Positions 12,125-29,310 of a DNA stretch of 52,656 nt are shown one piece after another. Position 1 is the first letter of the stretch. Every line of letters starts with the position of its first letter. Below the pieces are notes generated by a model that worked only from the letters and a program-made list of their open reading frames with translations, was not told where the DNA came from and searched no databases. A program made the position numbers and the translations under genes. Source of the stretch: a virus; IMG/VR virus record IMGVR_UViG_3300031801_000001, positions 1 through 52,656 of that record. One strand, 5' to 3'.

Positions 12125-12206
12125 CAAGAAACGTGCCAAGCTTCAACCAGATCCAACCTCACGCATATAAAAGAATGACGCACGCGCGTAGCAAGAAATG
12201 TGCCAA
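12125..12206. promoter_or_regulatory. direct-repeat operator candidate between divergent promoters
   Basis: CAAGAAACGTGCCAA (12125-12139) recurs as CAAGAAATGTGCCAA (12192-12206), 14 of 15 bases alike. The copies are 67 bp apart, in the only divergent intergenic region of the window. A short palindromic ACGCGCGT lies between them. A shared regulator site is inferred. Confidence 0.45.
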
Positions 12207-12225
12207 AAAAAGATCATTTAACCTC

Positions 12226-12253
12226 TTGACTTAACGAAACGACGACTTATATT
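12226..12253 (+). promoter_or_regulatory. sigma70-like promoter, leaderless type
   Basis: -35 TTGACT (12226-12231), 16-nt spacer ending GACGACT, -10 TATATT (12248-12253). The GTG start at 12260 follows after six bases. Confidence 0.8.
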
Positions 12254-12259
12254 ATAGAG

Positions 12260-12475
12260 GTGACAAGTGTAACCAATGATTATCTAAAAAATGGCACCCT
12301 TGTTCGGTGGCATAACGATTTCATTACAAAAGACCTACCTATAAAATCATATCTTGGCACCGTTCTTAATGTACGCGCAACGGAAGGAGGGCTTCCTGAA
12401 TATAAAATCTTATGGGCTGTCGATGGTAGAATTGACTGGACTAATTCGATCTCGGAATATGAGATTGTAGCATGA
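12260..12475 (+). CDS. SH3-like protein, leaderless GTG start
   Basis: A 71-aa protein: KNGTLVRWHND, YLGTVLNV, YKILWAVDG, then SEYEIVA. Closest to the next gene (VLVRWHNNE, YLGLVVD), so the two are tandem copies. No in-frame alternative start lies between the GTG and the conserved core. Confidence 0.75.
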   Translation: MTSVTNDYLKNGTLVRWHNDFITKDLPIKSYLGTVLNVRATEGGLPEYKILWAVDGRIDWTNSISEYEIVA

Positions 12476-12669
12476 ACCAAAAATATAAGATCGGTGTTCT
12501 CGTTCGATGGCACAATAACGAACTAAGTGAAGATCTACCCGACGATTCATATCTCGGCTTGGTTGTTGATACGGAAAACTCTTTAGGCAATCCTGACATT
12601 AAAGTTCTTTGGAATGATGGACTTTCTTCATGGTGTTATGCTGACGGGGATTTTGAGATTTTGTCGTGA
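12472..12669 (+). CDS. SH3-like small protein
   Basis: A 65-aa protein: YKIGVLVRWHNN, YLGLVVDTE, IKVLWNDG, DGDFEILS. ATGA overlap with the gene before and GTGA overlap with the gene after. Confidence 0.8.
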   Translation: MNQKYKIGVLVRWHNNELSEDLPDDSYLGLVVDTENSLGNPDIKVLWNDGLSSWCYADGDFEILS

Positions 12670-12809
12670 GCAATAAAATCAAAGTTGGGGATCTTGTCTC
12701 AAGTCTAGATAATTCAAGTGCGCGAGTTCTTTGGAACGATGGAAAAATTAGTTATATCTGGTCAGATGAGGATTTGTTAAGCCCAAATTACGAACTTTTA
12801 GTCCCTTGA
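12666..12809 (+). CDS. minimal SH3-like protein
   Basis: A 47-aa frame from GTG: MSNKIKVGDLVSS, then ARVLWNDGKIS and DEDLLSP. The GLV strand found in full-length members is missing, so about 15-20 residues of the core are deleted. The coupled GTGA start suggests it is still translated. The next promoter's -35 box lies in its last codons. Confidence 0.6.
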   Translation: MSNKIKVGDLVSSLDNSSARVLWNDGKISYIWSDEDLLSPNYELLVP

Positions 12810-12834
12810 CAACTCCAACTTTCATGCTTATATT
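12806..12834 (+). promoter_or_regulatory. sigma70-like promoter, leaderless type
   Basis: -35 TTGACA (12806-12811), 17-nt spacer ending CATGCT, -10 TATATT (12829-12834). The ATG of the 26-aa peptide begins at 12841, six bases after the -10. Confidence 0.82.
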
Positions 12835-12840
12835 ATACAC

Positions 12841-12921
12841 ATGGAAGAAACATTTTCACTTTTTACTTTTTTCATTGTCCTCGGAACATTTTGGTTCGAG
12901 TTGACTCAGGAAGATAACTAA
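12841..12921 (+). CDS. 26-aa membrane peptide, leaderless
   Basis: MEETFSLFTFFIVLGTFWFE then a polar tail: one hydrophobic helix with acidic ends. Its TAA overlaps the ATG of the zinc-knuckle gene (TAATG), so it may also serve as a translation-coupling leader for that gene. Confidence 0.6.
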   Translation: MEETFSLFTFFIVLGTFWFELTQEDN

Positions 12922-13616
12922 TGCGTTGTTCTTATTGCTGGAATCGTGAAGGTCATAACCGGCTTGGATGCCCGAAACGAAAAGCAATTATTATTGCCAA
13001 CCCTGACGGGTGGGAAGCAACTAGGGAAGCCCAACGACAAACTGCACTCACGAAGCGCAAATGCTCTTATTGCCGAAAGGTTACCCGGCAAGGGACCGAA
13101 AAAGAGCAAGCAAGCGCATTTGGGCACAACCGACGTAGCTGCAAAAAACTCGCAACTGCCTCTGCAAAAGCCAAAAAGCTTTGCCGTAAGTGGCGACAAG
13201 ATCTTAAAGATACCTGCAAAACGGAAGGCGTAGGAGTGGGTGCGTTACTTAGCGTTCCTCAAGATGAATGGTCTAATAATGGAGAATACACACCCACTAG
13301 GAGACTATTGCTCGTAACGGGAATCAGCTTTACAACATGGGATCATCAAGAGCTTAACCACGAAAGCGCAAATACAGATATGAGGTGCAATCCCTGGATT
13401 ATTCAAGGACGATGGGTTCACAACAACCAAAAAGGATCTTCCAAATTTCCAAAACTTATTCATTCTGATTATGAAAGTGGATTTCTACTTTCTGAGGCAA
13501 GCAAAAGCCATTTTGGTTCAGAAGGATGTACAATTGTAGCCCCATCTAAGGGAGAGCTTGGCTTTACCGATAGCTGGATCAACGATGAAAAAGCGGTTGA
13601 TCATCTTTTCAGGTAG
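12921..13616 (+). CDS. zinc-knuckle protein, copy 4 (plus strand)
   Basis: A 231-aa protein: C-S-Y-C-W-N-R-E-G-H-N-R-L-G-C knuckle, then KCSYCRK ... GHNRRSC, GVGVGALLSVPQ, a longer diverged middle and the IVAPSKGELGF ... DEKAVDHLF end. The DxxGMDG block of the minus-strand copies is absent. It is AT-richer than they are, so it is an older or separately acquired copy. It again precedes SH3-like genes. Confidence 0.75.
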   Translation: MRCSYCWNREGHNRLGCPKRKAIIIANPDGWEATREAQRQTALTKRKCSYCRKVTRQGTEKEQASAFGHNRRSCKKLATASAKAKKLCRKWRQDLKDTCKTEGVGVGALLSVPQDEWSNNGEYTPTRRLLLVTGISFTTWDHQELNHESANTDMRCNPWIIQGRWVHNNQKGSSKFPKLIHSDYESGFLLSEASKSHFGSEGCTIVAPSKGELGFTDSWINDEKAVDHLFR

Positions 13617-16501: not shown

Positions 16502-17734
16502 TTACACTCTCTCCATAAAATTAACTATATCATCATGATTGTTTTGAATCTCGCCAGTTTGAATTACACTAATTATTGCTTTTAACATAGAACCAACCTG
16601 CCCACCGGAGAAACCGAGTTTCATGATATCATGTCCTGTGATATCTAACTCTTTGTTATTAATTGGATTTCCCAAAACCAACGCAATCTTTAACACATCA
16701 TTCTGATAGTGTAAACCAAAACGCTTGAATAACTTATGAAGTAGTTGCAATCTTCCTCTTGAAACTCCATCCATCTCCCAAATGTTTTTATTGCCCTGGG
16801 CAATTTGCTTGGCGAGGTTCAAGATTCCAGACATTTCTTTTGTTGGGCGCATTCGCTCTGGCTCTCCGCCTCTTAAAAAGAATGCAACAAAATTAGTCAA
16901 CATACTCTCGTCAGTATCAACGAATGGAGGATTGATCTCCAAAGGTTCAAACCCAAAACCAAATAAGAACTCACCAATTCCTAATTCTTTTAAAAGTTCA
17001 ATGAGATGACTACTATCTTTTCTTCCTTTTGTCCAAGCCTTTTCAAACTCCATAAAAATTCTTTCAACCGCAATAGAACGAAGAAGATGAAAGTTATTCT
17101 TTATACTTCGCTTTGTTTTTTCCTCAATATCAAAATCAAGGCGGACAGCAAACTGAATTGCTCTCAAAATTCTTAATGGATCTTCAGCAAATCTTTCATC
17201 GGGATTTCCCACTGTGCGTATAACTTTGTTTTGGATATCTTCAACGCCACCAAATATATCAATGATATTGCCCTCTGAATCTTTAGAAAGAGCGTTCATT
17301 GTAAAATCTCTTCTTGCCATATCATCTTCTACAGTTGCAGTGTGATCTGACACAATATCAAAATCCGTATGTTTAGTGCCAGTCTTCTTTTCGGTTCTTG
17401 GAATTGAGAAATCATATTCATCACCGTCGATGACAGCCTTAATGATACCAAAAGACTTTCCAACTTCAGACACCTTACCGAGAGCAGACAATATCTTTTC
17501 TAAATCATCCAAGGGAATTCCAGTTACAACAAAATCAATATCTTTTGGTTCAGGGGCATCGGGGATTAACTCGTCTCGCACAGCACCGCCAACAATAAAA
17601 GATTTACCTCCATTCTGACGAATTAGTCTGTGAATATTATTTAGTGTTTCTGGGGAGGGGGCAGCTTCGGTTAGAATGTAAGAATCAGCATCTTCAACAA
17701 CATAACTATTCCACGATGACATGAATTCTCTCAT
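16502..17734 (-). CDS. cca: CCA-adding enzyme / poly(A) polymerase family
   Basis: A 410-aa class II nucleotidyltransferase. It shows GGAVRDEL (49-56), the catalytic DID (65-67), RRDFTMNAL, and EDPLRILRA of the tRNA nucleotidyltransferase head, followed by a helical C-terminal body. The family adds or repairs the CCA end of tRNA, or adds A tails. The N-terminal about 25 residues lie before the head domain and read SSWNSY ... ILTEAA, matching the tag shared with five other proteins here. The ATG overlaps the upstream stop (ATGA). Whether it is CCA- or A-specific cannot be told from motifs alone. Confidence 0.85.
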   Translation of the reverse strand: MREFMSSWNSYVVEDADSYILTEAAPSPETLNNIHRLIRQNGGKSFIVGGAVRDELIPDAPEPKDIDFVVTGIPLDDLEKILSALGKVSEVGKSFGIIKAVIDGDEYDFSIPRTEKKTGTKHTDFDIVSDHTATVEDDMARRDFTMNALSKDSEGNIIDIFGGVEDIQNKVIRTVGNPDERFAEDPLRILRAIQFAVRLDFDIEEKTKRSIKNNFHLLRSIAVERIFMEFEKAWTKGRKDSSHLIELLKELGIGEFLFGFGFEPLEINPPFVDTDESMLTNFVAFFLRGGEPERMRPTKEMSGILNLAKQIAQGNKNIWEMDGVSRGRLQLLHKLFKRFGLHYQNDVLKIALVLGNPINNKELDITGHDIMKLGFSGGQVGSMLKAIISVIQTGEIQNNHDDIVNFMERV

Positions 17735-18186
17735 TGATATAATTCTTCAACTTCGCCGCAAACATTAAAGGCTTCAATTGATTTATAATCGGCTTCAGAA
17801 AATTCATTAGACATTTCTGGTTTTCCACCTTTCGATGGATGAGTGGCAATTGTAATATGCGGAAGCCCCTGAATTTTAAATGGAACTGGTATATCTTTCA
17901 TATCAATTTTAACTGCCATGACAAAATCATTTTGTGCCATAGCAACAACGGTTAAACAATCGTTAAATCTATGCCACCGTGCAGGAATTCTACCCATCTT
18001 TTGTTCGGAAGGATTAATTAGTGTCATGTGGTGAGCATGAATCTTCCATTCAGCGGGAGCGTAAGACGCAAGCTTCTCTTGAGATTCTTTATCTAGTACA
18101 TATGCTGTATAATGCATACGCTTCGTTGGCTTGCGCATGTTCATCTCTTTAAGATAGTTATTCCAATTTTCAAATATCTTCTTCAT
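17731..18186 (-). CDS. 2H phosphoesterase (RNA ligase/CPDase-like)
   Basis: A 151-aa protein with the two H-x-T motifs of the 2H family, HMT at 53-55 and HIT at 110-112, each at the end of a beta strand. Such enzymes open 2',3'-cyclic phosphates or act on 2'-5' RNA links. ATG 18186 is chosen because GGAGGGAGG precedes it, and it yields the tag MKKIFENWNNYLKE. It lies between the CCA enzyme and a HAD phosphatase, consistent with RNA-end repair. Confidence 0.75.
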   Translation of the reverse strand: MKKIFENWNNYLKEMNMRKPTKRMHYTAYVLDKESQEKLASYAPAEWKIHAHHMTLINPSEQKMGRIPARWHRFNDCLTVVAMAQNDFVMAVKIDMKDIPVPFKIQGLPHITIATHPSKGGKPEMSNEFSEADYKSIEAFNVCGEVEELYQ

Positions 18187-18829
18187 CAATCCTCCCTCCG
18201 TTTCCAGCAATTTCCTTCAACTTTTCAATAGTTGTTTGAGCTGAATGATGGTGAATACCCTCGCCGCCGGCTTCAATCCACGGATCAAGAAACTTCAACA
18301 TATCATCAATTAACAAGCTGTTTTCAGTTGCGTGCTTGAACTTATCGTGTGTTAAAATAACTTTTGATTCATCAATTCCTAAATTTCTTTTAAGCCAATC
18401 AAACTTCCCTTGCGATGAACCCTCACCACTCATCGGCGCTGAGAGTATGATGGGGTTAAACTTCTTAATATAGCTCCAAACAGCCTTGCCTTCTGGCATC
18501 CACTTTAAATTTGCCCAAAACTCTCTATTGTTGCCAACAAGCTTGTACATATAGTTTCTAGCTGATTTGAGCCTAATTGATTTATCAAAACTAATATCTT
18601 TAATTGTAATTTTGTGTTCTCTGCCCAATCTATCAAGGGCGGTTCTTAACTTTTCTTTATATTTATTTCCATTCTCCACGTTTTGAAGACTGTTGTTGAC
18701 ATAATCAATCACTCCATCTTGAAAATTCACCAAAACTCCATCCATATCACAATAGATTTGATAAGGAAAAGTGGAATGTCCCCCTTCAGATAGGAAAGAT
18801 TTCCATTTATTTAAAGCATTCATTGTCAT
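18170..18829 (-). CDS. HAD-superfamily phosphatase
   Basis: A 219-aa protein with motif I DMDGVLVNF (from 28), a Ser in ILSAPMS for motif II and the LLIDDML acidic motif III/IV. The ending EAGGEGIHHHSAQTTIEKLKEI is typical of phage 5'-nucleotidase or polynucleotide 3'-phosphatase-like HADs. The N-terminus LNKWKSFLSEGG carries the shared tag with an LSE site. The substrate may be an RNA or DNA 3' phosphate or a nucleotide. Confidence 0.75.
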   Translation of the reverse strand: MTMNALNKWKSFLSEGGHSTFPYQIYCDMDGVLVNFQDGVIDYVNNSLQNVENGNKYKEKLRTALDRLGREHKITIKDISFDKSIRLKSARNYMYKLVGNNREFWANLKWMPEGKAVWSYIKKFNPIILSAPMSGEGSSQGKFDWLKRNLGIDESKVILTHDKFKHATENSLLIDDMLKFLDPWIEAGGEGIHHHSAQTTIEKLKEIAGNGGRIDEEDI

Positions 18830-18833
18830 AATT

Positions 18834-19301
18834 TTAAATAAGTTTGTTAACCCCGATTAGCTTGTTGATTGTCAATCCGACAATTGTTTTCATTTGTGAT
18901 TTTAAAACTTTTTGAACATATATTCTTGGAGTCAATTCAACCTGGGAAATGCAGCAAAATTTAACTCTCAAACGTACAGAGGTTCCTGTTGAGTCTTCTA
19001 TCGAATGCCCAAATGGCGTAACGATTGTAACGCCAGGGATTGATCTAATTTCTGCCCATGTTTGTTCTTTGTCACCTCCGAGTTCCTTAGAGACATGAAC
19101 AATAAAAACAGCCTCCCAAACATCTTGGCTAAAATCTGTGCCTGTTTCATTTATAAACTCTTTCCACGATGCATCTGGAGTTAGAGGTTTAATTTCCCAC
19201 TCATTATCTTCCAAGATTGTAATCACAGACTTCTTAAATATTCTTTCGTTATTATCGTTTTGCATACTATAATTATCTACAAACTTCTGAAAAGATATCA
19301 T
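18834..19301 (-). CDS. hypothetical protein
   Basis: A 155-aa protein, mixed charge, with a strand-rich C-terminal half. I see no known motif. MISFQKFVDNY at the start is vaguely like the tag but lacks the Trp and the LxE. It overlaps the VWA lipoprotein gene by 29 nt. Confidence 0.55.
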   Translation of the reverse strand: MISFQKFVDNYSMQNDNNERIFKKSVITILEDNEWEIKPLTPDASWKEFINETGTDFSQDVWEAVFIVHVSKELGGDKEQTWAEIRSIPGVTIVTPFGHSIEDSTGTSVRLRVKFCCISQVELTPRIYVQKVLKSQMKTIVGLTINKLIGVNKLI

Positions 19302-21357
19302 TCAAGTAACCTCTAATCTCTTCGCTCGTAATCCCTCCATATAAATTATAACAAGTCATTGCAATATTGGACGGCTCGCACCATTCATTGTTGAACGCTT
19401 GAGGCACGATTGCGTATACCTCAAATACATCTTCTTGTCCGCAATCACCCACTTGACAAGGAGACAATGAATTTCTCACAGTAGCAGCAGTATTTCTTTC
19501 TGTTGATTGTGCTACTTCATCAGTGAATACAACCATCATAGGAAAAGCATCATCTCTAAACGATAAAGCATAATCATTTCTTGCTACATGATATACTGCA
19601 TCATATTGTGGTTCTCTTCCCCCCAAATTACAACCAACACCATTAAGAGCAATTTGAAACTGTTCTGCAGACACAAAATTAATTAAAACATCCGGGGCGT
19701 TTCCAAAGGAGCCAGGAACATTAATAATGGCAAATCTATGTGGAGTACCAATATATTCTAGCACATATGGCTGAATTCCTCTCTTTAATGCACGAATCGT
19801 TGAACACATAGAACCACTTCGATCAATAACAAAAACCATATCCACCTTATCGTGAGCATCTAAATCTTCATCTGTCTCTCCGTCACAGTCATCATCTAAA
19901 TGATTGCAAACCTCTTCTGTTGGCAGTGTTTGCGCCGGACAAAGATTTTCTATAAACACATCTCCAGCATCATCACCCCAAATTCCCCTCTGACAAGTCT
20001 GTCCTCCCTCGGCACAAACCCCTACATTTAGTGTACCAAGAGGTCCGGTATAACAACTACGAGAAAGATCTTCATCAACTTCTTCATCACAATCATCGTC
20101 CCAATTGTTACAAATTTCTGCTTCAGGCAATCCTAAATCTGCTATACATCCCTCTTGAATCTCAGGACGATATACGCATAAAGCCTGACATACTGTATAA
20201 TGCGTTGTAATACATTCGGGAGTATCACATTCGCAACGCATATAACCCAAACCGCAAGTCAATATAGGATTGCCATTACAGGGAAACAACCCTCCAACCA
20301 TTTCTGGTGGACATGCGCAATTTAAATCTTCATCAATCAATCCGTCGCAATCATCGTCAAGTCCATTGCAAGATTCTTCAACGGGCAAATTTGCCGTGCA
20401 ATCAATCCAACTACCAGCATTGCAAATTTCAAAACCTGAGCCACAAATCGTTTGACAAGGTTTAACTAACAATTCATCCACGGCTCCGTCACAGTCGTTA
20501 TCTAAATTATCGCACACTTCTGTCTCTGGTAATGCTGTATCTTGACACTCCAAGTCTGCCTTTGAACCATTCCATACGCAATCATAATGTCCATATTCGC
20601 AAATACCCTCATCAGTCATTCCACATTCCGCACCAACGCCTCTAGCTCCCTCATCTACAACGCCGTTGCAATTGTTATCTATACCGTCACACAGTTCCTC
20701 TGAAGGCAATACTTCGTGCAAACATCCGGTCCATCTTGCAAACTGACACGTTTGAATGCCCTTTTTACATGGTGATGAATTCACTCTCGGATCATTAAAT
20801 ACCAAATAATCCAATGGAGTTCCATCTTGTTTTCTAGGTCCGCTCCAACATGAACGTTTAAGGCTTTCATCAACTGAGTTATCACAATTATTATCGCGTC
20901 CGTCACAAATTTCTGTTGCGGGAAGTTGAATATCAATACACAATCCCTTTACCCAAATATCATCGCCAGTACCTCCAATTCGATCTGGTCCTTCTTCCCA
21001 AGCACCTAGTTCAGAGCCCCCTTCTGGAAGAAATCTGCAAACTTGTCTACCGTAGTCGCATATTCCATGCAATGAACCAAAATCTTCTCCGCTTACTGTA
21101 TAAAACTCAATTGGATAATCATCGTTCCAACACTCTCTCGGATCATCAAGAAAACACTCGCACCCTTCATCGACTTCTCCGTTACAGTTATTATCTTTAA
21201 AATCACACAACTCGGGAATAGAAGCATCTGACTCAGCCAACGGATTATCTTCAGTACATGAAATATCAAGCGAACCTGCAACAAATTGTTTTTCATCTGC
21301 ACACATCGAACATGCCTGAAGTAGCAAACAAAACGGAATAAACTTAATCCACTTCAT
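19273..21357 (-). CDS. MopE-repeat VWA lipoprotein
   Basis: A 694-aa protein. Start 21357 gives a clean lipoprotein signal (MKWIKFIPFCLLLQAC), while the longer frame would bury it. Seven copies of the Asp/Asn-rich metal-binding motif follow (for example EVCNHLDDDCDGETDEDL), each separated by Cys-rich modules. A C-terminal VWA domain with MIDAS DRSGS and a VVFTDEV strand ends the chain. The layout is common in surface proteins of Myxococcota and similar bacteria and is unusual in a phage. It should sit on the outer face of a membrane and bind calcium or copper; adhesion or superinfection blocking is possible. Confidence 0.8.
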   Translation of the reverse strand: MKWIKFIPFCLLLQACSMCADEKQFVAGSLDISCTEDNPLAESDASIPELCDFKDNNCNGEVDEGCECFLDDPRECWNDDYPIEFYTVSGEDFGSLHGICDYGRQVCRFLPEGGSELGAWEEGPDRIGGTGDDIWVKGLCIDIQLPATEICDGRDNNCDNSVDESLKRSCWSGPRKQDGTPLDYLVFNDPRVNSSPCKKGIQTCQFARWTGCLHEVLPSEELCDGIDNNCNGVVDEGARGVGAECGMTDEGICEYGHYDCVWNGSKADLECQDTALPETEVCDNLDNDCDGAVDELLVKPCQTICGSGFEICNAGSWIDCTANLPVEESCNGLDDDCDGLIDEDLNCACPPEMVGGLFPCNGNPILTCGLGYMRCECDTPECITTHYTVCQALCVYRPEIQEGCIADLGLPEAEICNNWDDDCDEEVDEDLSRSCYTGPLGTLNVGVCAEGGQTCQRGIWGDDAGDVFIENLCPAQTLPTEEVCNHLDDDCDGETDEDLDAHDKVDMVFVIDRSGSMCSTIRALKRGIQPYVLEYIGTPHRFAIINVPGSFGNAPDVLINFVSAEQFQIALNGVGCNLGGREPQYDAVYHVARNDYALSFRDDAFPMMVVFTDEVAQSTERNTAATVRNSLSPCQVGDCGQEDVFEVYAIVPQAFNNEWCEPSNIAMTCYNLYGGITSEEIRGYLNDIFSEVCR
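19359..19385. repeat. 27-bp sequence shared with 16147-16173, copy B
   Basis: Located near the 3' end of the VWA lipoprotein gene, where it encodes part of EWCEPSNIA. Copy A is read in a different frame. Confidence 0.85.
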
Positions 21358-21577
21358 TATCTTCTTCCTCTTCCATTGGAGGAGCAGACTTACTGCGTTC
21401 TTCTGGCGGATCGACATCAAAAGGAGCCTCTTCTTTTTCAACTCCTTTTATCGTTAATCTATTTCTTTTATGTTTTTGTCTGACGGCTCTTTGAAGTGGC
21501 TCTTCTTCAAACAGAAGAGTAGGAACATTGTGTGGAAATTCTATAAATTTCTGCCATTGTTCTAATATGCGCTTCAC
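21344..21577 (-). CDS. small tagged acidic protein
   Basis: A 77-aa protein: RILEQWQKFIEF, then LLFEEEP, then a basic patch and a long acidic tail (EEEEDNEVD). The W-x-x-F and LFE elements match the shared N-terminal tag, and almost nothing else follows. It looks like a scaffold-core or internal head protein. Overlaps the next gene by 14 nt. Confidence 0.6.
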   Translation of the reverse strand: MKRILEQWQKFIEFPHNVPTLLFEEEPLQRAVRQKHKRNRLTIKGVEKEEAPFDVDPPEERSKSAPPMEEEEDNEVD

Positions 21578-21601
21578 TTATTAACTAGTTGCTAATATTA
21601 T

Positions 21602-21961
21602 CTAATTTAATTGTTTTTTGATTTCGTCCTGCTCTCTCTGCAATTTGGCTCTAAACAATAAAAGGTTCATCACTGCACGATATTGAGAGTTGGTGATTTC
21701 TTCTCCATCATAATTCGTATTCATTCTCAATAAATTCTCTAAGTCTGCTGTATTGGAGACTAGGGATTTATCAAATTTACTAAACTCATGAATGTCTATA
21801 AGACCTTCAGACACAGTTTCAAAAATCTTAACTGCCTTGTCATCATCCCAATCGCACGCTTCGACCAACTCCATCATACAAGAATAATACTCTGCAAATC
21901 CTTTAACTGATTCTTCTAAAAGCTCAAATGCCTTTGCTCTATCTTCATCATCTTGTTTCAT
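21602..21961 (-). CDS. hypothetical helical protein
   Basis: A 119-aa acidic protein predicted to be mostly helical, with the coiled-coil-like end FRAKLQREQDEIKKQLN. No recognised family. Confidence 0.55.
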   Translation of the reverse strand: MKQDDEDRAKAFELLEESVKGFAEYYSCMMELVEACDWDDDKAVKIFETVSEGLIDIHEFSKFDKSLVSNTADLENLLRMNTNYDGEEITNSQYRAVMNLLLFRAKLQREQDEIKKQLN

Positions 21962-21999
21962 AATTTATTGTTCTCACTCAAATTTAACGTATCGCTTAA

Positions 22000-22269
22000 T
22001 TATTGCTCCTCGGGTAATCTTAGAGAAGAATTAGCTTCAGGAGTAGCCACTTTCTTATTTCCCTTTGACGTACTCCTGATACAAACTGCAATCACTGCCA
22101 TAATAAAAGCAGCATATAAAAACAAACCACCCCAAGCCACAATTTTATTTTGAAGAACAACCCCAAGAACAACCATAAGAAACATTGACTTCGCCAATAC
22201 GAAAAGTGCAACAGCTAATTTTGTAGTGTTATTTGTATCTAAAAGTGCATTAACTAACATTGTGCCCAT
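22000..22269 (-). CDS. membrane protein, two helices
   Basis: An 89-aa protein with hydrophobic stretches at about 18-42 and 46-64 (GGLFLYAAFIMAVIAVCI), then a basic, polar tail. Similar in layout to some phage holins, but no lysis gene is adjacent; the amidase lies 11 kb away. Confidence 0.6.
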   Translation of the reverse strand: MGTMLVNALLDTNNTTKLAVALFVLAKSMFLMVVLGVVLQNKIVAWGGLFLYAAFIMAVIAVCIRSTSKGNKKVATPEANSSLRLPEEQ

Positions 22270-22299
22270 GCATTATATTCTCACATATAGACGCAATTG

Positions 22300-22713
22300 T
22301 TAATCGATTTTAACCAATCTGAACTCATAAAATACAAATCCACCAGAAAGCGTGGAGTCGCTTTCGTTCTTCAAAAAAATATACCCCAGTTGATTATCTT
22401 CGTTATTGGGATTAACATTGTGCCCTCGCAGGAATTCAAGAACCATCAACTTTGTCAACGTCTGAGAGAATTCATTCCAATCTTCTGCATATCCTAGAAC
22501 GAATAGATCATCGAAACCCATACACTTCTCTGCTCTAATAACAAACATATTCGTGCCGAAGACTTCAAATGGAAAAGCCATTTGTGGATTCGGACACGCA
22601 TCCTTCATCTTTTCGACTGTCAATTTATCAATTCTCTTGGAGCGTTCCACATAAGCGCAGCTATATGAACCAAGTAGTATGAGTGCCAATAATGATGCCA
22701 ATAATTTTCTCAT
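22300..22713 (-). CDS. predicted lipoprotein
   Basis: A 137-aa protein with an MRKLLASLLALILLGSYSC signal and lipobox-like SYSC. The mature part starts with a charged helix and contains two Cys. Its first residues resemble the small lipoprotein at 4462-4734, but the bodies are unrelated. Ends a few bases before the next upstream gene begins. Confidence 0.65.
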   Translation of the reverse strand: MRKLLASLLALILLGSYSCAYVERSKRIDKLTVEKMKDACPNPQMAFPFEVFGTNMFVIRAEKCMGFDDLFVLGYAEDWNEFSQTLTKLMVLEFLRGHNVNPNNEDNQLGYIFLKNESDSTLSGGFVFYEFRLVKID

Positions 22714-22718
22714 TTTCT

Positions 22719-25289
22719 TTATCCTTTGTTTTTGTTCTCCAGCATTAATTTTGCAATCTTAACTGTCTGAAGTACAATTCTTTTTACTGTTTCATTTAGT
22801 TCTTCTGGATCAATATCTGGATTGGCATTTCTAATCCTAATTTTTAGAACATTCATTAGGGCTCTAATGTCATTAGATGGTACTGCATGTCCTTTTCTGT
22901 CTGCGTCAAATATGGTGTCAATTAACTTTATGGCAGCATCATTAACCTTTTGATCTTTAGGGAAGCTTTCTCTGGCTTTGGTGGCAAATTCTTTGGCAGA
23001 ATTCCTTAACTCAATTGAGGTTTCAAGTTTTATGTCCTTATCTATTACAATCATTTCCTCAAGAATAAGTTTTGCAGTCTCCAAAACAAAATCCATATTC
23101 TTGTCTAAATATTCAAGCATAAGGAGAGCCGCCTCTGCGTTACTTTCGTGGGTACTAGATGGTAAAAGCGATATAGCCTTCAAAGATAATTTAGTTGAAT
23201 CTCTATCGTCTGTCTGTACGTGAATCACAAAATCCACAAACATAGGCAACGTCATTGAAATAATTGAATGTGGCTTCTCTTTCGGTCCCTCAATGCCTGG
23301 AAGGACTAACTGTTTTGCGGCATACTCTTGAGCTTCGGCTTCTTTTGATTTCAGTTTTTTATACAAATGATCGTTAAATGTATTGGAGCGGAATTCATTA
23401 TATTCAACGCCGCTAAACAGCTCTTTAAAGATTTTGTAATCTGGACTGGATCTGTCCATTGAGGCTATGATAAATTTGTCTGTTTGCGGATCTGTTTTGA
23501 GTTCCAAAACGCCCTCGTCGTATTCCCAGTCGAAATTTTCAAATTCAATCTCTTCGCTTTCAAGCTTGCTTAAAACAGAATCCGTATAAGATGGTTCAAT
23601 ATGTCCATTTTCAACCAATACCTGTCTAATGACATCTTTTACAATCTTATATTTATTATCAACGTCATAAGCGTAGTCTACAAAATCGCTAAATCCATCG
23701 GGGGTGAATTCGTGTTCTATCTCTAGATCAAATCTAATTAAAAGAGTTTGGGAATTAGATTGCCCCCAAGGATTATCAAATAGTATGTCACTGTACCAAA
23801 TATCAGCATCATTAAGAGCATCGCCCAGTTGATTATAAAGTACTCGTTGTTCTTGCCATTCACTCGGCAAAGAATCCAAAATTTCAAATTCCTCAGAATG
23901 GAACTCAACAGCCATCGAGCCTCCAAAAGATAAGTAAACATCATCATCCCAATCACCACCTTCAACTTCAGACCAAACACCGACATACTGTAATCTTCGA
24001 TCTGCATCGGTTTGAATTTGTTCTCTCTCTTCTTCATATTGGTCTGCCAAGTTTGGACCAACTTGTTCAGAATCATCTTCCACGTCACCCGAATATTCTG
24101 TTGTGTGAAAAAAGTCATTAAACATAGAAGACGAATAAGAATCTGAATAACTACCTCCCTTTCTCACAAAATCGTGCATGTCAGGAAGCCCTGTTCCAAT
24201 CAACTTCCCCTCCTCGTCTCTATCAAATTCAATATCTGGATCATTCTGTTCAAGATACTCTCTTTGCGCTGCGAGTGCCCAATCAGAAACAGCCTCTCTA
24301 AAACCAACATAACCGACTCCATAAGTTTGTTCTTCTGGAACGGCTAAATCGTAATCATCGTCTACATTGAAGAACCTTCTTAATCTAACTCTCGCCAAAG
24401 GTTCAGCACCCTCGATACGCCTAGAGGGATCTTCGAAGATTTCTTCGTCTTGTAAATCAATCCCTTCCAATTGTTCGGTTTCTACTACATATGCAATTGG
24501 ACCATGACCTTTTGATTCTGCCATAGCACAATCAAAATAACCTGAACCTTCGCTGTGGCATGAATGAATCTTATTGAAATCTGACATTCTTACAACGTCA
24601 ATTGGATGGCGAGAAACTACAATGGAGAATTTACTAGCAGTCATTATATCTTCTGGGTGGGTTCTGTAATATTCGGACTTGGCGTTCCAGAAATTTAATA
24701 GTTTCTTTGCGTCAACATGATTTATTATTTCACTGTTTCTACCGAAAAGCTTTTGCCATTGTTGATATAATTTTTGCTTTAATTTTCTAAGCTCTTCTCG
24801 CCGTGGATGCGCGACGTAGCCACCGTCGTCAGGGACAGAGACTCGGTGCTCGTAATCCGAGACAGAGCGCCAATATTCTTGATCAAATTTTGTGTATTTC
24901 TCACTTATTTGAGCTGCTCTATTCAGCAACTTTCCGATTTTTGTCTTTCTTTCTTGTGTACCCTTTTGAGTTTCTACTTCCACAGAGACAGTACCAGTAG
25001 AAAAATCCACTTTGTAACCTGCTCCTTCAAAAAATTTAATTAAATCTTGAATTATTTCGTCGGCATAAGTTTGCATCGGAAACGCAACTCGCCACTTTCC
25101 ATCGAACATATGTGCGAAAGAATAGTCATCAATATTGTCGGCTTGTGCCATCCAATCTTTAACTCTTTCATAGTTTGAATCGGTAATTTCGGCAAGAACA
25201 TTTTGTTCAATTTCTTGAAGGACTACTTCACTTAAAAGAGTTTTTTTGGACTCAAGAAATTGTTTCCACTGACCATGAAAATCATTCAT
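22719..25289 (-). CDS. large unknown protein with N-terminal tag
   Basis: An 856-aa acidic protein. It starts FHGQWKQFLESKKTLLSEV, the tag with an LSE site. A block at about 225-275 reads VVSRHPIDVVRMSDFNKIHSCHSEGS then CAMAESKGHGPIAYVV; Cys, His and Asp there could form a catalytic or metal site. I recall the same block in large proteins of other giant phages but cannot assign activity. The remainder is helical and rich in Asp/Glu. Size, acidity and tag suggest an internal virion protein that enters the cell. Confidence 0.6.
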   Translation of the reverse strand: MNDFHGQWKQFLESKKTLLSEVVLQEIEQNVLAEITDSNYERVKDWMAQADNIDDYSFAHMFDGKWRVAFPMQTYADEIIQDLIKFFEGAGYKVDFSTGTVSVEVETQKGTQERKTKIGKLLNRAAQISEKYTKFDQEYWRSVSDYEHRVSVPDDGGYVAHPRREELRKLKQKLYQQWQKLFGRNSEIINHVDAKKLLNFWNAKSEYYRTHPEDIMTASKFSIVVSRHPIDVVRMSDFNKIHSCHSEGSGYFDCAMAESKGHGPIAYVVETEQLEGIDLQDEEIFEDPSRRIEGAEPLARVRLRRFFNVDDDYDLAVPEEQTYGVGYVGFREAVSDWALAAQREYLEQNDPDIEFDRDEEGKLIGTGLPDMHDFVRKGGSYSDSYSSSMFNDFFHTTEYSGDVEDDSEQVGPNLADQYEEEREQIQTDADRRLQYVGVWSEVEGGDWDDDVYLSFGGSMAVEFHSEEFEILDSLPSEWQEQRVLYNQLGDALNDADIWYSDILFDNPWGQSNSQTLLIRFDLEIEHEFTPDGFSDFVDYAYDVDNKYKIVKDVIRQVLVENGHIEPSYTDSVLSKLESEEIEFENFDWEYDEGVLELKTDPQTDKFIIASMDRSSPDYKIFKELFSGVEYNEFRSNTFNDHLYKKLKSKEAEAQEYAAKQLVLPGIEGPKEKPHSIISMTLPMFVDFVIHVQTDDRDSTKLSLKAISLLPSSTHESNAEAALLMLEYLDKNMDFVLETAKLILEEMIVIDKDIKLETSIELRNSAKEFATKARESFPKDQKVNDAAIKLIDTIFDADRKGHAVPSNDIRALMNVLKIRIRNANPDIDPEELNETVKRIVLQTVKIAKLMLENKNKG

Positions 25290-25327
25290 TTTATATCCTC
25301 AAACCTAACTAGGTTAATTGTTTAAGC

Positions 25328-25480
25328 TCAAGGACTGTCATCCCTTTTATAAGATTCATTTCCCTCTTGAACTTCTTCTTCCTCTTCGCTAATTTCAGTT
25401 TCTTCAGAAACTTCTTTATTCAGAAGATGAGAGATTTCCTCTTGAATAATCTCTTTTAGTCTAGCTTTTGTAATGACCAT
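25328..25480 (-). CDS. small acidic phage protein
   Basis: A 50-aa protein from ATG 25480: MVITKARLKEIIQEEI followed by a run of Glu and Ser. The RLKEIIQEE opening is seen on many small proteins of T4-like marine phages. A longer frame runs back into the terminator region and is rejected. Confidence 0.6.
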   Translation of the reverse strand: MVITKARLKEIIQEEISHLLNKEVSEETEISEEEEEVQEGNESYKRDDSP

Positions 25481-25527
25481 ATAATTACTCCTTGAAAATT
25501 CGTAGTAAATAGTTTTTAAAACAACAA

Positions 25528-25555
25528 AAGGGCACCTCAATTTGAAGTGCCCCTT
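25528..25555 (-). terminator. rho-independent terminator after hsp20
   Basis: GGGGCACTTCA-AATT-TGAGGTGCCC stem and loop followed on the minus strand by TTTTGTTGTTTT. It separates the Hsp20 gene from the genes below it. Confidence 0.8.
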
Positions 25556-25582
25556 ATTTTGTTGAATCTCTTACGGTTTCGT

Positions 25583-26029
25583 TTACTTAATAGGAATCGT
25601 AACCGATGCAACTGTGGCTGACGAAGGCTCAACCTCAATAGTTAAAACACCATTGCGATGAGAAGCCGTCACGTCATCGGCAACAACACCTTTATCAACC
25701 TGCCACGAACGAACAAAAGGCTCAATAAACGCCCCTGGATTGTCTTCGTTAGCAAAAAGCTCGACAATTAAAGCAGTGTCGGCAAGACTAATCAAAAAAT
25801 CCTTTCGCATAACTCCTGGGGCTGCAATGATAACTGTCAAGCCTCCATCGTTACGATGGTTTACTGAAGTCTGCGGAATAGACTGCGAAGCGGGCTGCAG
25901 AGCAAACTCAGGAAAGCGGGTGGTGATCCAAGGCTCGTACTGCGTAAGACTGGCAAAGGGACGCCAACCGTCGTTGTCATTAAAGCTCTCAAAAAAATCT
26001 CGATATGGTAATGTTCTTAGTGAATTCAT
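25583..26029 (-). CDS. Hsp20 / alpha-crystallin small heat-shock protein
   Basis: A 148-aa protein. The alpha-crystallin domain covers about residues 60-148: strands GLTVIIAAPGVMRKDFLIS and ALIVELF, then HRNGVLTIEVEP (the conserved GVL) and a terminal VTIPIK that carries an I-x-I-like tail motif. It should hold unfolding proteins. ATG 26029 has an AGGAG site; the longer frame starts in the previous gene. A terminator follows directly, so it ends its transcript. Confidence 0.85.
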   Translation of the reverse strand: MNSLRTLPYRDFFESFNDNDGWRPFASLTQYEPWITTRFPEFALQPASQSIPQTSVNHRNDGGLTVIIAAPGVMRKDFLISLADTALIVELFANEDNPGAFIEPFVRSWQVDKGVVADDVTASHRNGVLTIEVEPSSATVASVTIPIK

Positions 26030-26052
26030 TGTTTTCTCCTTTATAATGTTAA

Positions 26053-26499
26053 TCACTTACTTCTTCTAACTTTCAAGAATCGGGAGACTTTTTGACCTTC
26101 CCCCCAAAACTTTTTGTTCTTTCTATCGTCAGTCACCAAGAGAGTAGAAATAAACTTCTTTCCATCGCCTCTCCAACCATCACTGACGTTAAACCTGTAG
26201 AGTTCTAAATTTCCATAAGGTCGTTTTGGTTCTTTCTTTGCGTACTTCTTACGGGGGGGTTTGATATTTAAGTGTGCAACACATCCATTTACAATATCTT
26301 CCTCGCTCATACCTTCCTCAAGAAGAGAATCGATATCAAGTCCAATAATGTGAGCAGCAATCACCCACCTCTCTTGACCAAACTCTTTCACGTTCCAGAA
26401 AAATGAACCGTGATATCTGCCCTCACGAAGCTTTTCATCTTCCTTAGCCAAAATTGTATACTTTTCAATTGTGCGAAATAAACATTTAATTTTCTTCAA
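26053..26499 (-). CDS. hypothetical basic protein
   Basis: A 148-aa protein with Lys-rich stretches (PPRKKYAKKEPKRPYG) and a W-rich middle. No family recognised. Four bases separate its start from the gene upstream. Confidence 0.55.
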   Translation of the reverse strand: MKKIKCLFRTIEKYTILAKEDEKLREGRYHGSFFWNVKEFGQERWVIAAHIIGLDIDSLLEEGMSEEDIVNGCVAHLNIKPPRKKYAKKEPKRPYGNLELYRFNVSDGWRGDGKKFISTLLVTDDRKNKKFWGEGQKVSRFLKVRRSK

Positions 26500-26502
26500 T
26501 TT

Positions 26503-26808
26503 CTAACCCTTTAACAAAGCTTTACCGTGCAACTTGCCTTCAATAACTTCAGGAGCGCCAATCACAGTAAGATCGATTCCATTATGTCCCCTCAACATAG
26601 AAATTGTTGAAAACTGATGATTCTTATCCAACTCTTCTGGAAGTTTTCCTTCTGTCAAAAGCTGTTTGAATCGTAAATCTTCTCTAACAAGAACTACATG
26701 CTCAGGGTTAATAAACACTTCACGAAATCCATACGACGAAACATCAGACTCGATTGAATGTTTTGCAACCCCTCTATTGTTTACAACCTCTGTCAACTTA
26801 ACAACCAT
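26503..26808 (-). CDS. small conserved phage protein
   Basis: A 101-aa protein: FREVFINPEHVVLVREDLRFKQLL and GHNGIDLTVIGAPEVIEGKL. This pattern occurs in a small protein found next to similar genes in cyanophages and other marine myoviruses, as I recall. Function not known. Confidence 0.62.
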   Translation of the reverse strand: MVVKLTEVVNNRGVAKHSIESDVSSYGFREVFINPEHVVLVREDLRFKQLLTEGKLPEELDKNHQFSTISMLRGHNGIDLTVIGAPEVIEGKLHGKALLKG

Positions 26809-26822
26809 TTTTATTCTCCTTA

Positions 26823-27041
26823 TTATCTTGTAAAAATGTCTCTTTCACGAACTAACCAAGTCTGTCCATCGTGTATGATCCTACAATAAGGATCGCCGGG
26901 AGAAGGCTTGGAAAGTAAAACTACGTTAATAGGTTCCTCAAGCAACGTTGCTCGGCTCATACCTCGATTGCTTTCAGCAATCTGCATTAAATAAACATTG
27001 GATGGAATATAAACCAATTCCCCTATATTATTCAGCATCAT
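26823..27041 (-). CDS. small conserved phage protein
   Basis: A 72-aa protein: NIGELVYIPSNVYL, then PINVVLLSKP and QTWLVRERDIF. A short beta-rich protein that resembles the SH3-like family in shape but has its own conserved ends. Overlaps the next gene by 14 nt. Confidence 0.6.
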   Translation of the reverse strand: MMLNNIGELVYIPSNVYLMQIAESNRGMSRATLLEEPINVVLLSKPSPGDPYCRIIHDGQTWLVRERDIFTR

Positions 27042-27396
27042 TAGACTCCTCAGGTAATGATTCTAATGTTGGCAAAGCTTCTATTTCCGCTGCTTGGGCG
27101 AGAGTGTCTGCTAACGCTGTGGCTTCTTTTTGCTTCAAAATAGTTAAAAATCCTTTAAGGATATCTTCGCAATCTTGAAGTCTAACATCTGTTTTTGACA
27201 ATGAACATCTTGTACTTTCAACGTTGAACATAGCTTTTTCAATGGACTCAATTAAATTTCGCTCACGGAGATCATCACTTGCTAAGTTCAAACTCATTCG
27301 CGCATCTTCCAAAGCAATTCCAGCACCGCCAATTAAATCAATCAATTCTTCAGGAATGTCATCAACATCTACTGTATACTGAATTTTTACCTTCAT
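27028..27396 (-). CDS. small conserved phage protein, helical
   Basis: A 122-aa protein from ATG 27396 with an AGGAGA site: MKVKIQYTVDVDDIPEELIDLI then two long helices with regular Leu/Cys. It is the first gene behind the promoter at 27413-27441, so with the next two genes and hsp20 it forms one short operon. Confidence 0.65.
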   Translation of the reverse strand: MKVKIQYTVDVDDIPEELIDLIGGAGIALEDARMSLNLASDDLRERNLIESIEKAMFNVESTRCSLSKTDVRLQDCEDILKGFLTILKQKEATALADTLAQAAEIEALPTLESLPEESNDAE

Positions 27397-27412
27397 ATTT
27401 TCTCCTACATAT

Positions 27413-27441
27413 AATATAAGCACTAAACTTCATCTTGTCAA
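27413..27441 (-). promoter_or_regulatory. sigma70-like promoter
   Basis: -35 TTGACA (27436-27441), 17-nt spacer ending AGTGCT, -10 TATATT (27413-27418). Drives the 27396 to 25583 operon. Confidence 0.8.
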
Positions 27442-27659
27442 GCTATTCTTGAAACTATTTTTAAATATTTAATTGCAACATCAGTGGTGGCATTTACACG
27501 ATCCAAACCTTTAAACCAACGAACGCTCACCTTTATTTCAAGAGGAGATTCCCAATGGTTCGGCGCTGCCTCTTCAAAAACTACACCCATAGGACTAAGC
27601 TCAGGAAGCCACCAAGAAAGTGTAACCATGTCTCCGATTTGAATCTTTTCCTCACTCAT
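27438..27659 (-). CDS. SH3-like small protein
   Basis: A 73-aa protein: KIQIGDMVTLSW, PMGVVFEEA, IKVSVRWFKG, KYLKIVS. Located 12 kb away from the main SH3 clusters, directly after the 27656-28435 gene (ATGA overlap). Confidence 0.72.
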   Translation of the reverse strand: MSEEKIQIGDMVTLSWWLPELSPMGVVFEEAAPNHWESPLEIKVSVRWFKGLDRVNATTDVAIKYLKIVSRIA

Positions 27660-28435
27660 TTCTTATACTGCTTAATGTTTTTTTCCTCAACCTCAATCAT
27701 TTTAGTATGACCAAATGGTAAAACTTTATATTTCTTTGATCCCTGAGGTTTCGATGATGTGATTCCTGAAGAATTTGCGACAATCACCGTTGCCATTTTG
27801 TTGGCTGATACGTATTCACCTAAATCAACCATAGCGACAAAACCTTTACGGAACTCAACAATGCTGCCGGGTTTATATTTTGAAAGAGAACGCACTTCAA
27901 CCAACAACTCTTTTGACTGTGGACTTTCACATAGTTTTTTATATTGTCTCTTGGACAAAATCTTATTGGGAATTTGACGAACACTAAACGCCAACTCGTA
28001 TAAAGAACTAGAATAGTAGCTATATTTCATGAAATCAGTCGTGGTCCCTCGCCGTCGCCGAAGGCGACCATCTTTTGTTCGTCTCCACATACGGATGTAA
28101 TATTCAGCACAAATTCTTGCTATCTCTTGCTTACGTACACCATAAGAATCAATCCACTTTTGGCGGCGGTTAATAGCTGACGGGGTATATCTGTTTGAAA
28201 TTGAATTTAACTGTCCTACCTCTTGTTTAGACAATCCTTTTTGAAGGTGAAACTTTTCACGGAGAGCTACAAGTTTCTTCTCGTCATCAAACAAATATTC
28301 CACACCATCGATATCCAAAATCCTATTGATTTTATTCAACAGATTGGATGTTGCATCAAAACCGGGCGCCCAATGCTTTTTACGACTACGATGCTGGCGA
28401 TTGATGAGATTGCGCTTAAGGTGGTTGTTACTCAT
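27656..28435 (-). CDS. unknown protein, paralog of 5060-5728, leaderless
   Basis: A 259-aa very basic protein with an RRRRR-type patch in the middle. The C-terminal KYKVLPFGHTKMIEVEE is nearly the same as in the 5060-5728 protein; the N-terminal half differs. The ATG at 28435 lies seven bases after the -10 box, so the mRNA should lack a leader. As at 5060, an SH3-like or small partner gene is adjacent. Confidence 0.7.
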   Translation of the reverse strand: MSNNHLKRNLINRQHRSRKKHWAPGFDATSNLLNKINRILDIDGVEYLFDDEKKLVALREKFHLQKGLSKQEVGQLNSISNRYTPSAINRRQKWIDSYGVRKQEIARICAEYYIRMWRRTKDGRLRRRRGTTTDFMKYSYYSSSLYELAFSVRQIPNKILSKRQYKKLCESPQSKELLVEVRSLSKYKPGSIVEFRKGFVAMVDLGEYVSANKMATVIVANSSGITSSKPQGSKKYKVLPFGHTKMIEVEEKNIKQYKK

Positions 28436-28442
28436 TACATAT

Positions 28443-28471
28443 AATATAACAACGATTTAAACAAATGTCAA
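28443..28471 (-). promoter_or_regulatory. sigma70-like promoter, leaderless type
   Basis: -35 TTGACA (28466-28471), 17-nt spacer ending CGTTGT, -10 TATATT (28443-28448). The gene's ATG is at 28435. Confidence 0.8.
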
Positions 28472-28476
28472 GGGTT

Positions 28477-29310
28477 TTATTGTATGGCAGCAAGAAGATG
28501 TTTAATTGCCTTGTTCTTCTCTTCTTCGTTGTATGAAATATCTTTTATATAATCAACAAACCCACTCAAACGTGGAGCGATTGCTGGAACTGATAAAAGA
28601 TATTGAACTAAATCTTCAAAAGTATTTATATCCTCTGGATTGGCATCTAATCCTATGGCTTTCAAAATCTCAACTGGTTCTGAAATCTTGCTACCGATAT
28701 TTTGCCATTTTGTTTTACTTTTAGGATCGTCTGGATCAAATTGAAGGGGGAGTTCCTTTTTCTGCAACCCGCCAGGATAAGAAATTACATTGCGGGAACG
28801 AGGAGTTCTTTGTAAACTGGCAACATAATTCAATAGAAAGTTTCTAAATGCTCCCTTTACTTCACTCACACGGCGTCCAGTCATCAACCACGATGTATGA
28901 GTAATGTTAGGAGACGCCATTAAATCGATCTGAACAAATTCATTGCTTCCTACAATGGGATATTTTACTGCAATATTCTGTCCCAACAACTTGACGTTGT
29001 TATCTCCTATTGTTTTTTTAAGTTTAGATGTGAGATCGTTCTTAAACTCTATTACGTCAGAGTCTCCCGAACTAATAACAATATCCAAATCTCCTGATTG
29101 TGATTTCTTGCCGGTCGAACCAATTGGTTGATATTCCATAACGCCCGCCGGTTTTAAATATCTTTCAAGAAAATCATCAAGTGTGGACTGAACTGCCGCT
29201 CTTTGTATAAAGGTTGTCTCGCTTCTACCATCTTTGTCTTTAAAAGCTTCGCCACCTTCAGTGAGGAAGGTAAATTCACGCCAATTTTCAAACAATAATT
29301 TCATACTCAT
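28477..29310 (-). CDS. tagged nucleotidyltransferase (pol beta fold)
   Basis: A 277-aa protein. GSTGKKSQSGDLDIVIS (64-80) gives the GS helix and the paired Asp of the nucleotidyltransferase fold, and VQIDLM supplies the third Asp near 129. Substrate unknown: it could modify tRNA, protein or a small molecule. The N-terminus LLFENWREFTFLTEGG is the clearest example of the shared tag, with an LTE site. Separated from the next gene by 12 nt. Confidence 0.75.
   Translation of the reverse strand: MSMKLLFENWREFTFLTEGGEAFKDKDGRSETTFIQRAAVQSTLDDFLERYLKPAGVMEYQPIGSTGKKSQSGDLDIVISSGDSDVIEFKNDLTSKLKKTIGDNNVKLLGQNIAVKYPIVGSNEFVQIDLMASPNITHTSWLMTGRRVSEVKGAFRNFLLNYVASLQRTPRSRNVISYPGGLQKKELPLQFDPDDPKSKTKWQNIGSKISEPVEILKAIGLDANPEDINTFEDLVQYLLSVPAIAPRLSGFVDYIKDISYNEEEKNKAIKHLLAAIQ

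Follow-up and report, generated by a model that had tools for sequence, protein, structure and literature searches.

Why do six proteins with unrelated bodies in one phage fragment begin with the same kind of short peptide? The stretch of DNA analysed here (the window) is the 52,656-nt record IMGVR_UViG_3300031801_000001, a fragment of an uncultured T4-like phage. The original prediction listed six proteins that share W-x-x-[FY] followed by [LI]-x-E, and all of the peptides are found at the N-termini named. As judged by sequence comparison, the shared N-terminus is very probably a capsid-targeting propeptide (CTS) of the T4 internal-protein type, carried by enzymes that would be packaged in the virion and probably injected.

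The six tagged proteins of the window

The N-termini consist of W-x-x-[FY], a spacer of 0–10 residues and [LI]-x-E, i.e., all six proteins carry [LI]xE after the targeting part. The spacer is 0 residues in the 2H and HAD proteins, 2 in the nucleotidyltransferase, 7 in the 856-aa protein, 9 in the CCA enzyme and 10 in the small acidic protein. The proteins and their tags are as follows.

16502–17734, minus strand: CCA tRNA nucleotidyltransferase / poly(A) polymerase head domain, 410 aa (PF01743, PF12627, phrog_2244)
17666–17734, minus strand: CCA-adding enzyme tag, MREFMSSWNSYVVEDADSYILTE, predicted cut before AAPSPETL
17731–18186, minus strand: putative 2H phosphoesterase, 151 aa, with HMT and HIT motifs in its sequence
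18145–18186, minus strand: 2H protein tag, MKKIFENWNNYLKE, predicted cut before MNMRK
18170–18829, minus strand: HAD-type 5'(3')-deoxyribonucleotidase-like protein, 219 aa (PF06941, phrog_420, phrog_2643)
18785–18829, minus strand: HAD protein tag, MTMNALNKWKSFLSE, predicted cut before GG
21344–21577, minus strand: small acidic protein, 77 aa, without a family match
21506–21577, minus strand: small acidic protein tag, VKRILEQWQKFIEFPHNVPTLLFE, GTG start, EE after the predicted cut
22719–25289, minus strand: 856-aa protein, conserved RHPxD..RM.D...SCHS...CA..E..G.G in alignment
25227–25289, minus strand: 856-aa protein tag, MNDFHGQWKQFLESKKTLLSE, then VV; additional LxE sites (LQE, LAE)
28477–29310, minus strand: putative nucleotidyltransferase, 277 aa, motif GS..K.SGDLDIVI in its sequence
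29257–29310, minus strand: nucleotidyltransferase tag, MSMKLLFENWREFTFLTE, predicted cut before GG

The bodies behind the tags are unrelated, with a CCA polymerase, a HAD/NT5C protein and the rest without a family match. The CCA enzyme matches PF01743 (2.4e-23), PF12627 (1.5e-10) and phrog_2244 (1.5e-62). Alignment with its PDB homologues starts only at residue 27 (residue 5 of 1miv), and the tag is therefore an extension that precedes a complete enzyme. It is retained in the L103 and L064 homologues. The 2H protein starts at an internal ATG, position 18186, instead of the listed TTG, and has a weak match to PF08302 (E 0.013). Its tag is retained in L064, L079, L103 and L114; the L064 homologue is 52% identical and is followed by a tagged CCA gene, in the same order as in the window. 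The HAD protein matches PF06941 at 2.6e-5, just below the cut-off, as well as phrog_420 and phrog_2643. A homologue with 47% identity in G010 has the N-terminus MEKYLKNWQNYLQE/G (a slash marks the cut site).

The tag of the small acidic protein is the least secure among the six; the L012 and L209 homologues, which correspond to the C-terminal part of the protein, do not have it. The 856-aa protein shows no match in Pfam or PHROG and no PDB fold with E below 0.06, and its AlphaFold model has a mean pLDDT of 71.5 and a pTM of 0.41. Its homologues with tags (L029, L010, L119, L070, L084 and L038) were retrieved by the tag scan, and four homologues have a different N-terminus. A search for related loci by means of the 856-aa and a 696-aa protein found none by that route. 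The nucleotidyltransferase has no match in Pfam, PHROG or PDB. An L089 homologue, 44% identical, begins MKQLFENWRRFLKSEVLTE/GG, where LTE/GG is retained and the spacer differs in length. A tblastn comparison of the nucleotidyltransferase and 856-aa proteins with isolate phages gave no match.

Comparison with T4 internal proteins and head genes

In the T4 CTS, residues 4 and 7 serve in targeting and residues 8 and 10 in processing, with cleavage by gp21 after L/I-x-E (PMC9026906). IPII and IPIII start with MKTY4QEF7I8AE10/A, and by sequence comparison the four fixed positions of the tag coincide with these residues. IPI, with MKTFKEFTSTTTPVSTITE/A, is the counterpart of the long-spacer form, while the short tag has the spacing of IPII and IPIII. 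In both systems the peptide is N-terminal, 10–24 residues long, with aromatic-x-x-[FY] and then [LI]xE; there is an S77 gp21-type protease and a gp23-type capsid protein with an LxE propeptide site; and the cargo is strongly diversified. The uncultured tag differs in having W as the first aromatic residue and an upstream [LF]-E-N element. After the predicted cut, its residues are often acidic and less A/G-rich than at the T4 internal-protein sites. The cargo is also different in scale: T4 has three small basic proteins per phage, whereas at least 95 clusters carry the tag, and many of these are recognisable enzymes. As the tag matches the T4 head-loading label residue for residue, the enzyme toolkit is probably delivered with the DNA.

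By this mechanism the W-x-x-[FY] aromatic pair would dock the new protein on the prohead core, and the protein would be enclosed as the shell forms. The gp21-type (S77) prohead protease would then cut after [LI]-x-E to free the mature enzyme, which probably enters the host together with the DNA.

Two other packaged systems can be compared. The propeptide of T4 Alt has 7 residues and is not known to have the W-x-x-F element. Alt is similar in being an enzyme with a short N-terminal propeptide that is packaged in the head, is injected and targets host machinery (PMC9026906), but it is an ADP-ribosyltransferase, and there is no ART among the tagged window proteins. In phage P1, the first 30 residues of DarB are enough to direct a foreign protein into the head (PMC9024508). 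The Dar proteins differ in that they do not have a common sequence and a link to LxE is not shown, and DarB is about 250 kDa.

The original prediction suggested a search for a gp21-like protease in the rest of the genome. The S77 protease and head genes are not found in the window record, as expected for a fragment; relatives have them. Among the 17 tagged records of at least 100 kb, 16 have the S77 protease. It is also present in all four records of 140 kb or more that were retrieved with the window's DNA polymerase (DnaE), where the tag was not used. G010 (186 kb), which is syntenic with the window, encodes a portal protein, the S77 gp21-type protease, an acidic scaffold and a gp23-type capsid protein in the 20-21-22-23 gene order. 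This capsid protein has its own LxE site, LLRE/AS (ELLREAS). A gp23-type capsid protein (PF07068) is found in 17 of 36 tagged virus records.

The tag could instead recruit a partner other than the core, e.g., GroEL encoded by the phage itself. In T4, the gp23 N-terminus, with a tag-like LLNKWKPLLEGEG stretch, directs proteins to GroEL according to a link cited in PMC10052503. GroEL is encoded by the window and by all four fetched relatives, and capsid proteins of the tagged phages begin with a loosely tag-like ..LLSKWERTGLLEG.. segment. This proposal is improbable in that it leaves without explanation the [LI]xE after the aromatic pair, which follows also at shifted spacings, the many tagged proteins that are small enzymes, and the T4-form tags that mark virion proteins of cyanophage S-CREM2.

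Targeting to another site in the infected cell, such as the replication site, a membrane or a phage compartment, with the T4 resemblance as coincidence, is less probable still. Many of the tagged nucleotide and RNA enzymes could act at a replication site, but the replication genes themselves have no tag. Tags are rare near the DNA polymerase, where 0.99 Mb gives 10 regex matches; tag-selected loci give 266 in 1.09 Mb. Nor would this reading account for the link with S77 or for the agreement with mapped CTS residues.

Spread and conservation of the tag

The consensus of the tag is MKLLFENWRKYLNE, and it occurs as a portable module in IMG/VR contigs. The strict pattern is found in 109 stretches of viral contigs compared with none in 84,980 cellular genomes (257 Gb). 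A tblastn comparison of the FENWR tag with isolate phages gave chance matches to Streptococcus phages only, and INPHARED lists no cultured representative of the lineage. Clustering with 25 residues removed gives 115 clusters of tagged proteins, at least 95 of them with the tight tag. The cargo comprises CCA, 2H and HAD proteins, nucleotidyltransferases, Nudix, SAM lyase, kinase, NMNAT-like, HD and DUF192 families and many unknowns, with up to eight tagged proteins per 11-kb locus. The tag is thus a portable module on many unrelated proteins, and in this Far-T4-related uncultured lineage the head probably serves to deliver enzymes from a large set whose membership changes. The search covered the open-access literature (subscription papers were outside its scope) and found no earlier description of the tag in uncultured phages.

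Conservation of the tag acts on the peptide and stops at the tag borders. In alignment the consensus MKLLFENWRKYLxE is confined to the protein start, and outside the tag the identity between unrelated families drops to about 0.27. When proteins are retrieved by FENWRx[FY] only, [LI]xE is present within 8 residues in 91 of 116, compared with 8–13 in other stretches. Most homologues retain the tag, and W, F/Y, L/I and E are kept while the tag sequences differ. A DNA or RNA element at gene starts (promoter, translation signal or recombination hotspot) with an incidental peptide is rejected on these properties: variation is far greater at third codon positions than at the other two, the four residues persist in homologous tags, and identity ends at the start codon and just past E. 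Tags within one genome can have near-identical DNA, which fits recent copying. The T4 late-promoter-like NATAAATA is found upstream of 0 of 34 tagged genes, i.e., there is no enrichment.

The motif is short, and shuffles yield single matches (0.7 per window), but chance, as with a degenerate motif chosen by eye, is hardly credible given the shuffle test, the excess in G010 and G026 and the conservation in homologues. The loose motif is present in 5 of 82 called window genes, a count that leaves out the GTG-start gene of the small acidic protein, compared with 0.68 expected from residue shuffles (p about 0.001) and 0.09 expected from internal windows. The tight form is present in three window genes compared with 0.11 expected (p about 0.002). 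G010 has 13 matches against 1.8 expected, and G026 has 10 against 1.2.

Virion proteomes of cyanophages and the nature of the cargo

The published virion proteome of S-CREM2 has the strict T4-form motif in 3 of 51 proteins detected by MS and in 0 of 167 undetected proteins (p 0.012), where the counts are small and contamination is possible according to its authors. The three marked proteins are a SAM hydrolase, a kinase and an NMNAT; the S-CREM2 paper makes no mention of a CTS. In the S-SCSM1 proteome the motif is in 1 of 47 virion proteins and 2 of 236 others, which is not significant (p 0.42). The virion NMNAT of S-SCSM1 starts with MKSFLQFLKE, and a clear T4-form protein, MKTFKQFMSE, has no virion flag. 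Across S-CREM2, S-CRM01 and S-SCSM1, the SAM hydrolase, kinase and NMNAT reported from virions begin with a T4-form CTS, and W-type tags of the uncultured lineage are on the same Pfam families as those of S-CREM2. The T4-like cyanophages differ in having the F-x-x-F form instead of FENWR and few tags per genome.

Comparison strongly supports the proposal of a T4-type CTS cut after [LI]xE by a gp21-like protease, through the exact match to positions mapped by mutation in T4, the protease in the window's relatives, peptide-level selection across about 95 clusters and the tagged S-CREM2 virion enzymes. That the tagged proteins of this lineage are packaged, cleaved and injected is inferred, as is what the enzymes do inside the host. 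The suggestion that they act on tRNA or other RNA ends on entry finds no support as a general rule, since Nudix, SAM lyase, kinase, NMNAT-like, HD and DUF192 proteins and many unknowns are also among the cargo. Such work would suit the CCA enzyme, the 2H protein and, less surely, the nucleotidyltransferase, but no others.

A broader picture is favoured, with some reserve. In a widespread uncultured T4-like lineage, one evolvable address tag would make the head a general protein-injection device with about ten enzymes per phage, and cargo would be swapped as new genes become fused to the tag. This rule would also explain the cyanophage virion enzymes, and virion cargo would therefore be predictable from sequence across T4-like phages. 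This is of significance in that phage proteins injected besides DNA are known only for a handful of models, and a tag recognisable in sequence data would allow prediction of the proteins that uncultured phages inject. It flags more than 90 protein clusters, many of no known function, as likely factors of host takeover or anti-defence in the first minutes. The tag also offers a cause for the presence of kinases, SAM hydrolases and NMNAT-like enzymes in cyanophage virions, and the tags may represent ready-made short signals by which proteins could be loaded into T4-like heads.

A possible seventh tagged protein is encoded in the window.

18834–19301, minus strand: 155-aa protein, MISFQKF...ITILE/D, internal SWKEFINE/TG

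This candidate, proposed from its sequence only, is weaker than the six, and a search for homologues found none. Its start, MISFQKF, is comparable to that of the S-CRM01 kinase, MISFDQFLSE.

The tag in the window proteins and their homologues

All six N-terminal peptides of the original prediction, W-x-x-[FY] followed by [LI]-x-E, are present at their genes, with two starts corrected: the putative 2H phosphoesterase begins at the ATG at 18186, and the small acidic protein at a GTG. Shuffled N-termini scored by this rule would give 0.68 tagged genes for the window, which has five with ATG starts alone (p about 0.001); for the tight form of the tag, three are observed and 0.11 expected. A 155-aa protein at 18834–19301 is a possible seventh.

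Tagged window proteins: residues between [FY] and [LI]xE; tagged homologues (L, compared loci)
2H phosphoesterase: 0; L064, L079, L103, L114
HAD protein: 0; 7 of 10 loci
Nucleotidyltransferase: 2; L089
856-aa protein: 7; L029, L010, L119, L070, L084, L038
CCA enzyme: 9; L103, L064
Acidic protein, 77 aa: 10; homologues without tag

In the tagged homologues the intervening residues have changed, and even the spacer. The nucleotidyltransferase start is MKQLFENWRRFLKSEVLTE/GG in L089 compared with MSMKLLFENWREFTFLTE/GG in the window (slash, predicted cut). Gene order in L064, tagged 2H and then tagged CCA, is that of the window. Alignment of the CCA enzyme with its PDB relatives begins only at residue 27, so that the predicted cut LTE23/A24 would leave a complete enzyme. 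Some 856-aa homologues have a different N-terminus instead of the tag. Those in L091, L071, L097 and L053 begin M[LR][NS]DE[QE]ILxxAxxLL..., then VLREVT or LLREIT, with no W tag; judged from sequence, this start is possibly an alternative targeting N-terminus. The 856-aa family (window 22719–25289) has a strictly conserved core, RHPxDxxRMxD...SCHS...CAxxE, and gave no family match and no fold match.

Conservation of the peptide and its T4 counterparts

The pattern Phe-Glu-Asn-Trp-Arg-x-[Tyr/Phe] near an ATG matched at least 120 stretches in IMG/VR. At least some 260 candidate tagged ORFs were parsed from the loci with matches listed, the densest of which has up to eight in 11 kb. A stricter 14-codon pattern is found in 109 stretches, on viral contigs; bacterial and archaeal genomes totalling 257 Gb gave no match. 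The FENWR form was not found among INPHARED isolate phages. With the first 25 residues removed, the tagged proteins form at least 115 clusters, at least 95 of them with the tight tag, and alignment of 97 cluster representatives shows conservation confined to MKLLFENWRKYLxE. Between unrelated families, nucleotide identity is at background directly beyond the tag borders and third codon positions within the tag are variable, which indicates that selection acts on the peptide.

The T4 internal proteins IPII and IPIII start MKTYQEFIAE/A, and IPI starts MKTFKEFTSTTTPVSTITE/A. Mutagenesis of the IPIII capsid-targeting sequence assigns residues 4 and 7 to targeting and 8 and 10 to processing, and the prohead protease gp21 cuts after L/I-x-E (PMC9026906). 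These four positions coincide exactly with the W, [FY], [LI] and E of the tag, and the long-spacer tags of the window copy the form of IPI. Among the matches listed, 116 non-redundant proteins were retrieved by FENWRx[FY] alone; 88 have [LIVMF]xE directly after the aromatic residue, and most others a few residues downstream. [LI]xE lies within 8 residues in 91 of the 116, compared with 8 to 13 for stretches elsewhere in these proteins. The window tag is very probably a capsid-targeting propeptide.

Head genes and published virion proteomes

No protease of the gp21-like S77 type was found in the window record, a fragment of 52.7 kb; relatives of the window carry one. It is present in 16 of 17 tagged virus records of at least 100 kb (T4 as positive control) and in all four records of at least 140 kb retrieved by the window's DNA polymerase III alpha, where the tag was not used. 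G010, a 186-kb relative, has homologues of 34 window genes in mostly conserved order. Its portal, S77 protease, acidic scaffold-like protein and gp23-type capsid protein (propeptide site ELLRE/AS) follow the T4 order. The 2H homologue is present there, and tags were verified on the HAD and 856-aa homologues. Among the isolates nearest in capsid protein are Microcystis phage Mel-JY01 and Rhodothermus phage RM378, the Far-T4 group reference.

Two groups of acidic proteins were also seen. Short proteins at window 25328–25477 and L126 1056–1403 start MVITKARLKEIIQEEI, which on its sequence may be another head-directed N-terminal type; the L126 protein (MKISKARLKQIIKEEL) adjoins the S77 protease gene. 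The second group, a family, starts LLNE/[AS]TVRRFMKLA and has many LxE[AGS] sites (window 36991–37524; G026 21038–21772; L200, L204, L226, L253). It is among the proteins richest in LxE[AGS] in the related records G026 and G039, and is a candidate core protein or second packaged class coded outside the head module.

The T4-form motif was fixed on T4 and S-CRM01 before other proteomes were tested. In S-CRM01 it starts a Ser/Thr kinase (MISFDQFLSE), an acetyltransferase (MKTFDEFLTE) and g33 (MRTFESFLAE); a Ser/Thr kinase is reported from S-CRM01 virions in work cited in PMC10665884. MS detected 52 proteins of S-CREM2 (PMC10665884 Table 3). The strict motif is found in 3 of 51 testable detected and 0 of 167 undetected proteins (p 0.012), and with one-residue slack in 4 of 51 and 0 of 167 (p 0.003). 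The three bearers of the strict motif are a SAM hydrolase, an APH/ChoK kinase and an NMNAT-like cytidylyltransferase. The virion-flagged NMNAT of S-SCSM1 starts with the motif (MKSFLQFLKE), although overall enrichment is not significant there (1 of 47 virion-flagged, 2 of 236 others). These results link the T4-form motif to virions in cultured relatives; for the uncultured lineage, packaging is inferred by comparison. In Mel-JY01 (L178 6406–7692) a SAM lyase annotated only as hypothetical has the T4-form start MQFKQYILGE/SS.

Probable cargo and other window genes

Pfam gave no match for most of the 97 tagged representatives. The matches are Nudix, poly(A) polymerase head, 2H, SAM lyase, kinase, AAA_33, guanylate kinase, HD, RNase T, amidase, DUF192, NT5C/HAD, transglutaminase-like and others; CTP_transf_like, S-AdoMet_lyase and Pkinase are shared with the motif-bearing cyanophage proteins. 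In the four genomes covered completely, replication genes and the capsid module are untagged. This is more in keeping with enzymes stored for host takeover, nucleotide salvage and anti-defence than with the RNA-end set originally predicted. For two or three of the six window proteins, immediate action on RNA ends is plausible; if packaged, the CCA enzyme and the 2H protein could together serve to mend tRNAs that host anticodon nucleases have cut.

A MopE-like protein, in which CNGxDDDCDGxxDE repeats accompany a vWA-like region, is coded close to tagged genes in several relatives (window 19273–21357; L012, L014, L065, L075; G010 109984–111825; G046, another relative, 180807–183134). An adenylosuccinate synthetase akin to the phage PurZ-type family (phrog_1211; 45562–46566) has IMP dehydrogenase (38161–39186) and a dUTPase-like gene (39643–40098) nearby. 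A modified purine (2-aminoadenine) in the window genome is possible; the polymerase, however, is DnaE-type. At 8670–13616 a zinc-ribbon-like family, CxxC...GHNRxTC, is represented by several diverged copies, not all on one strand.
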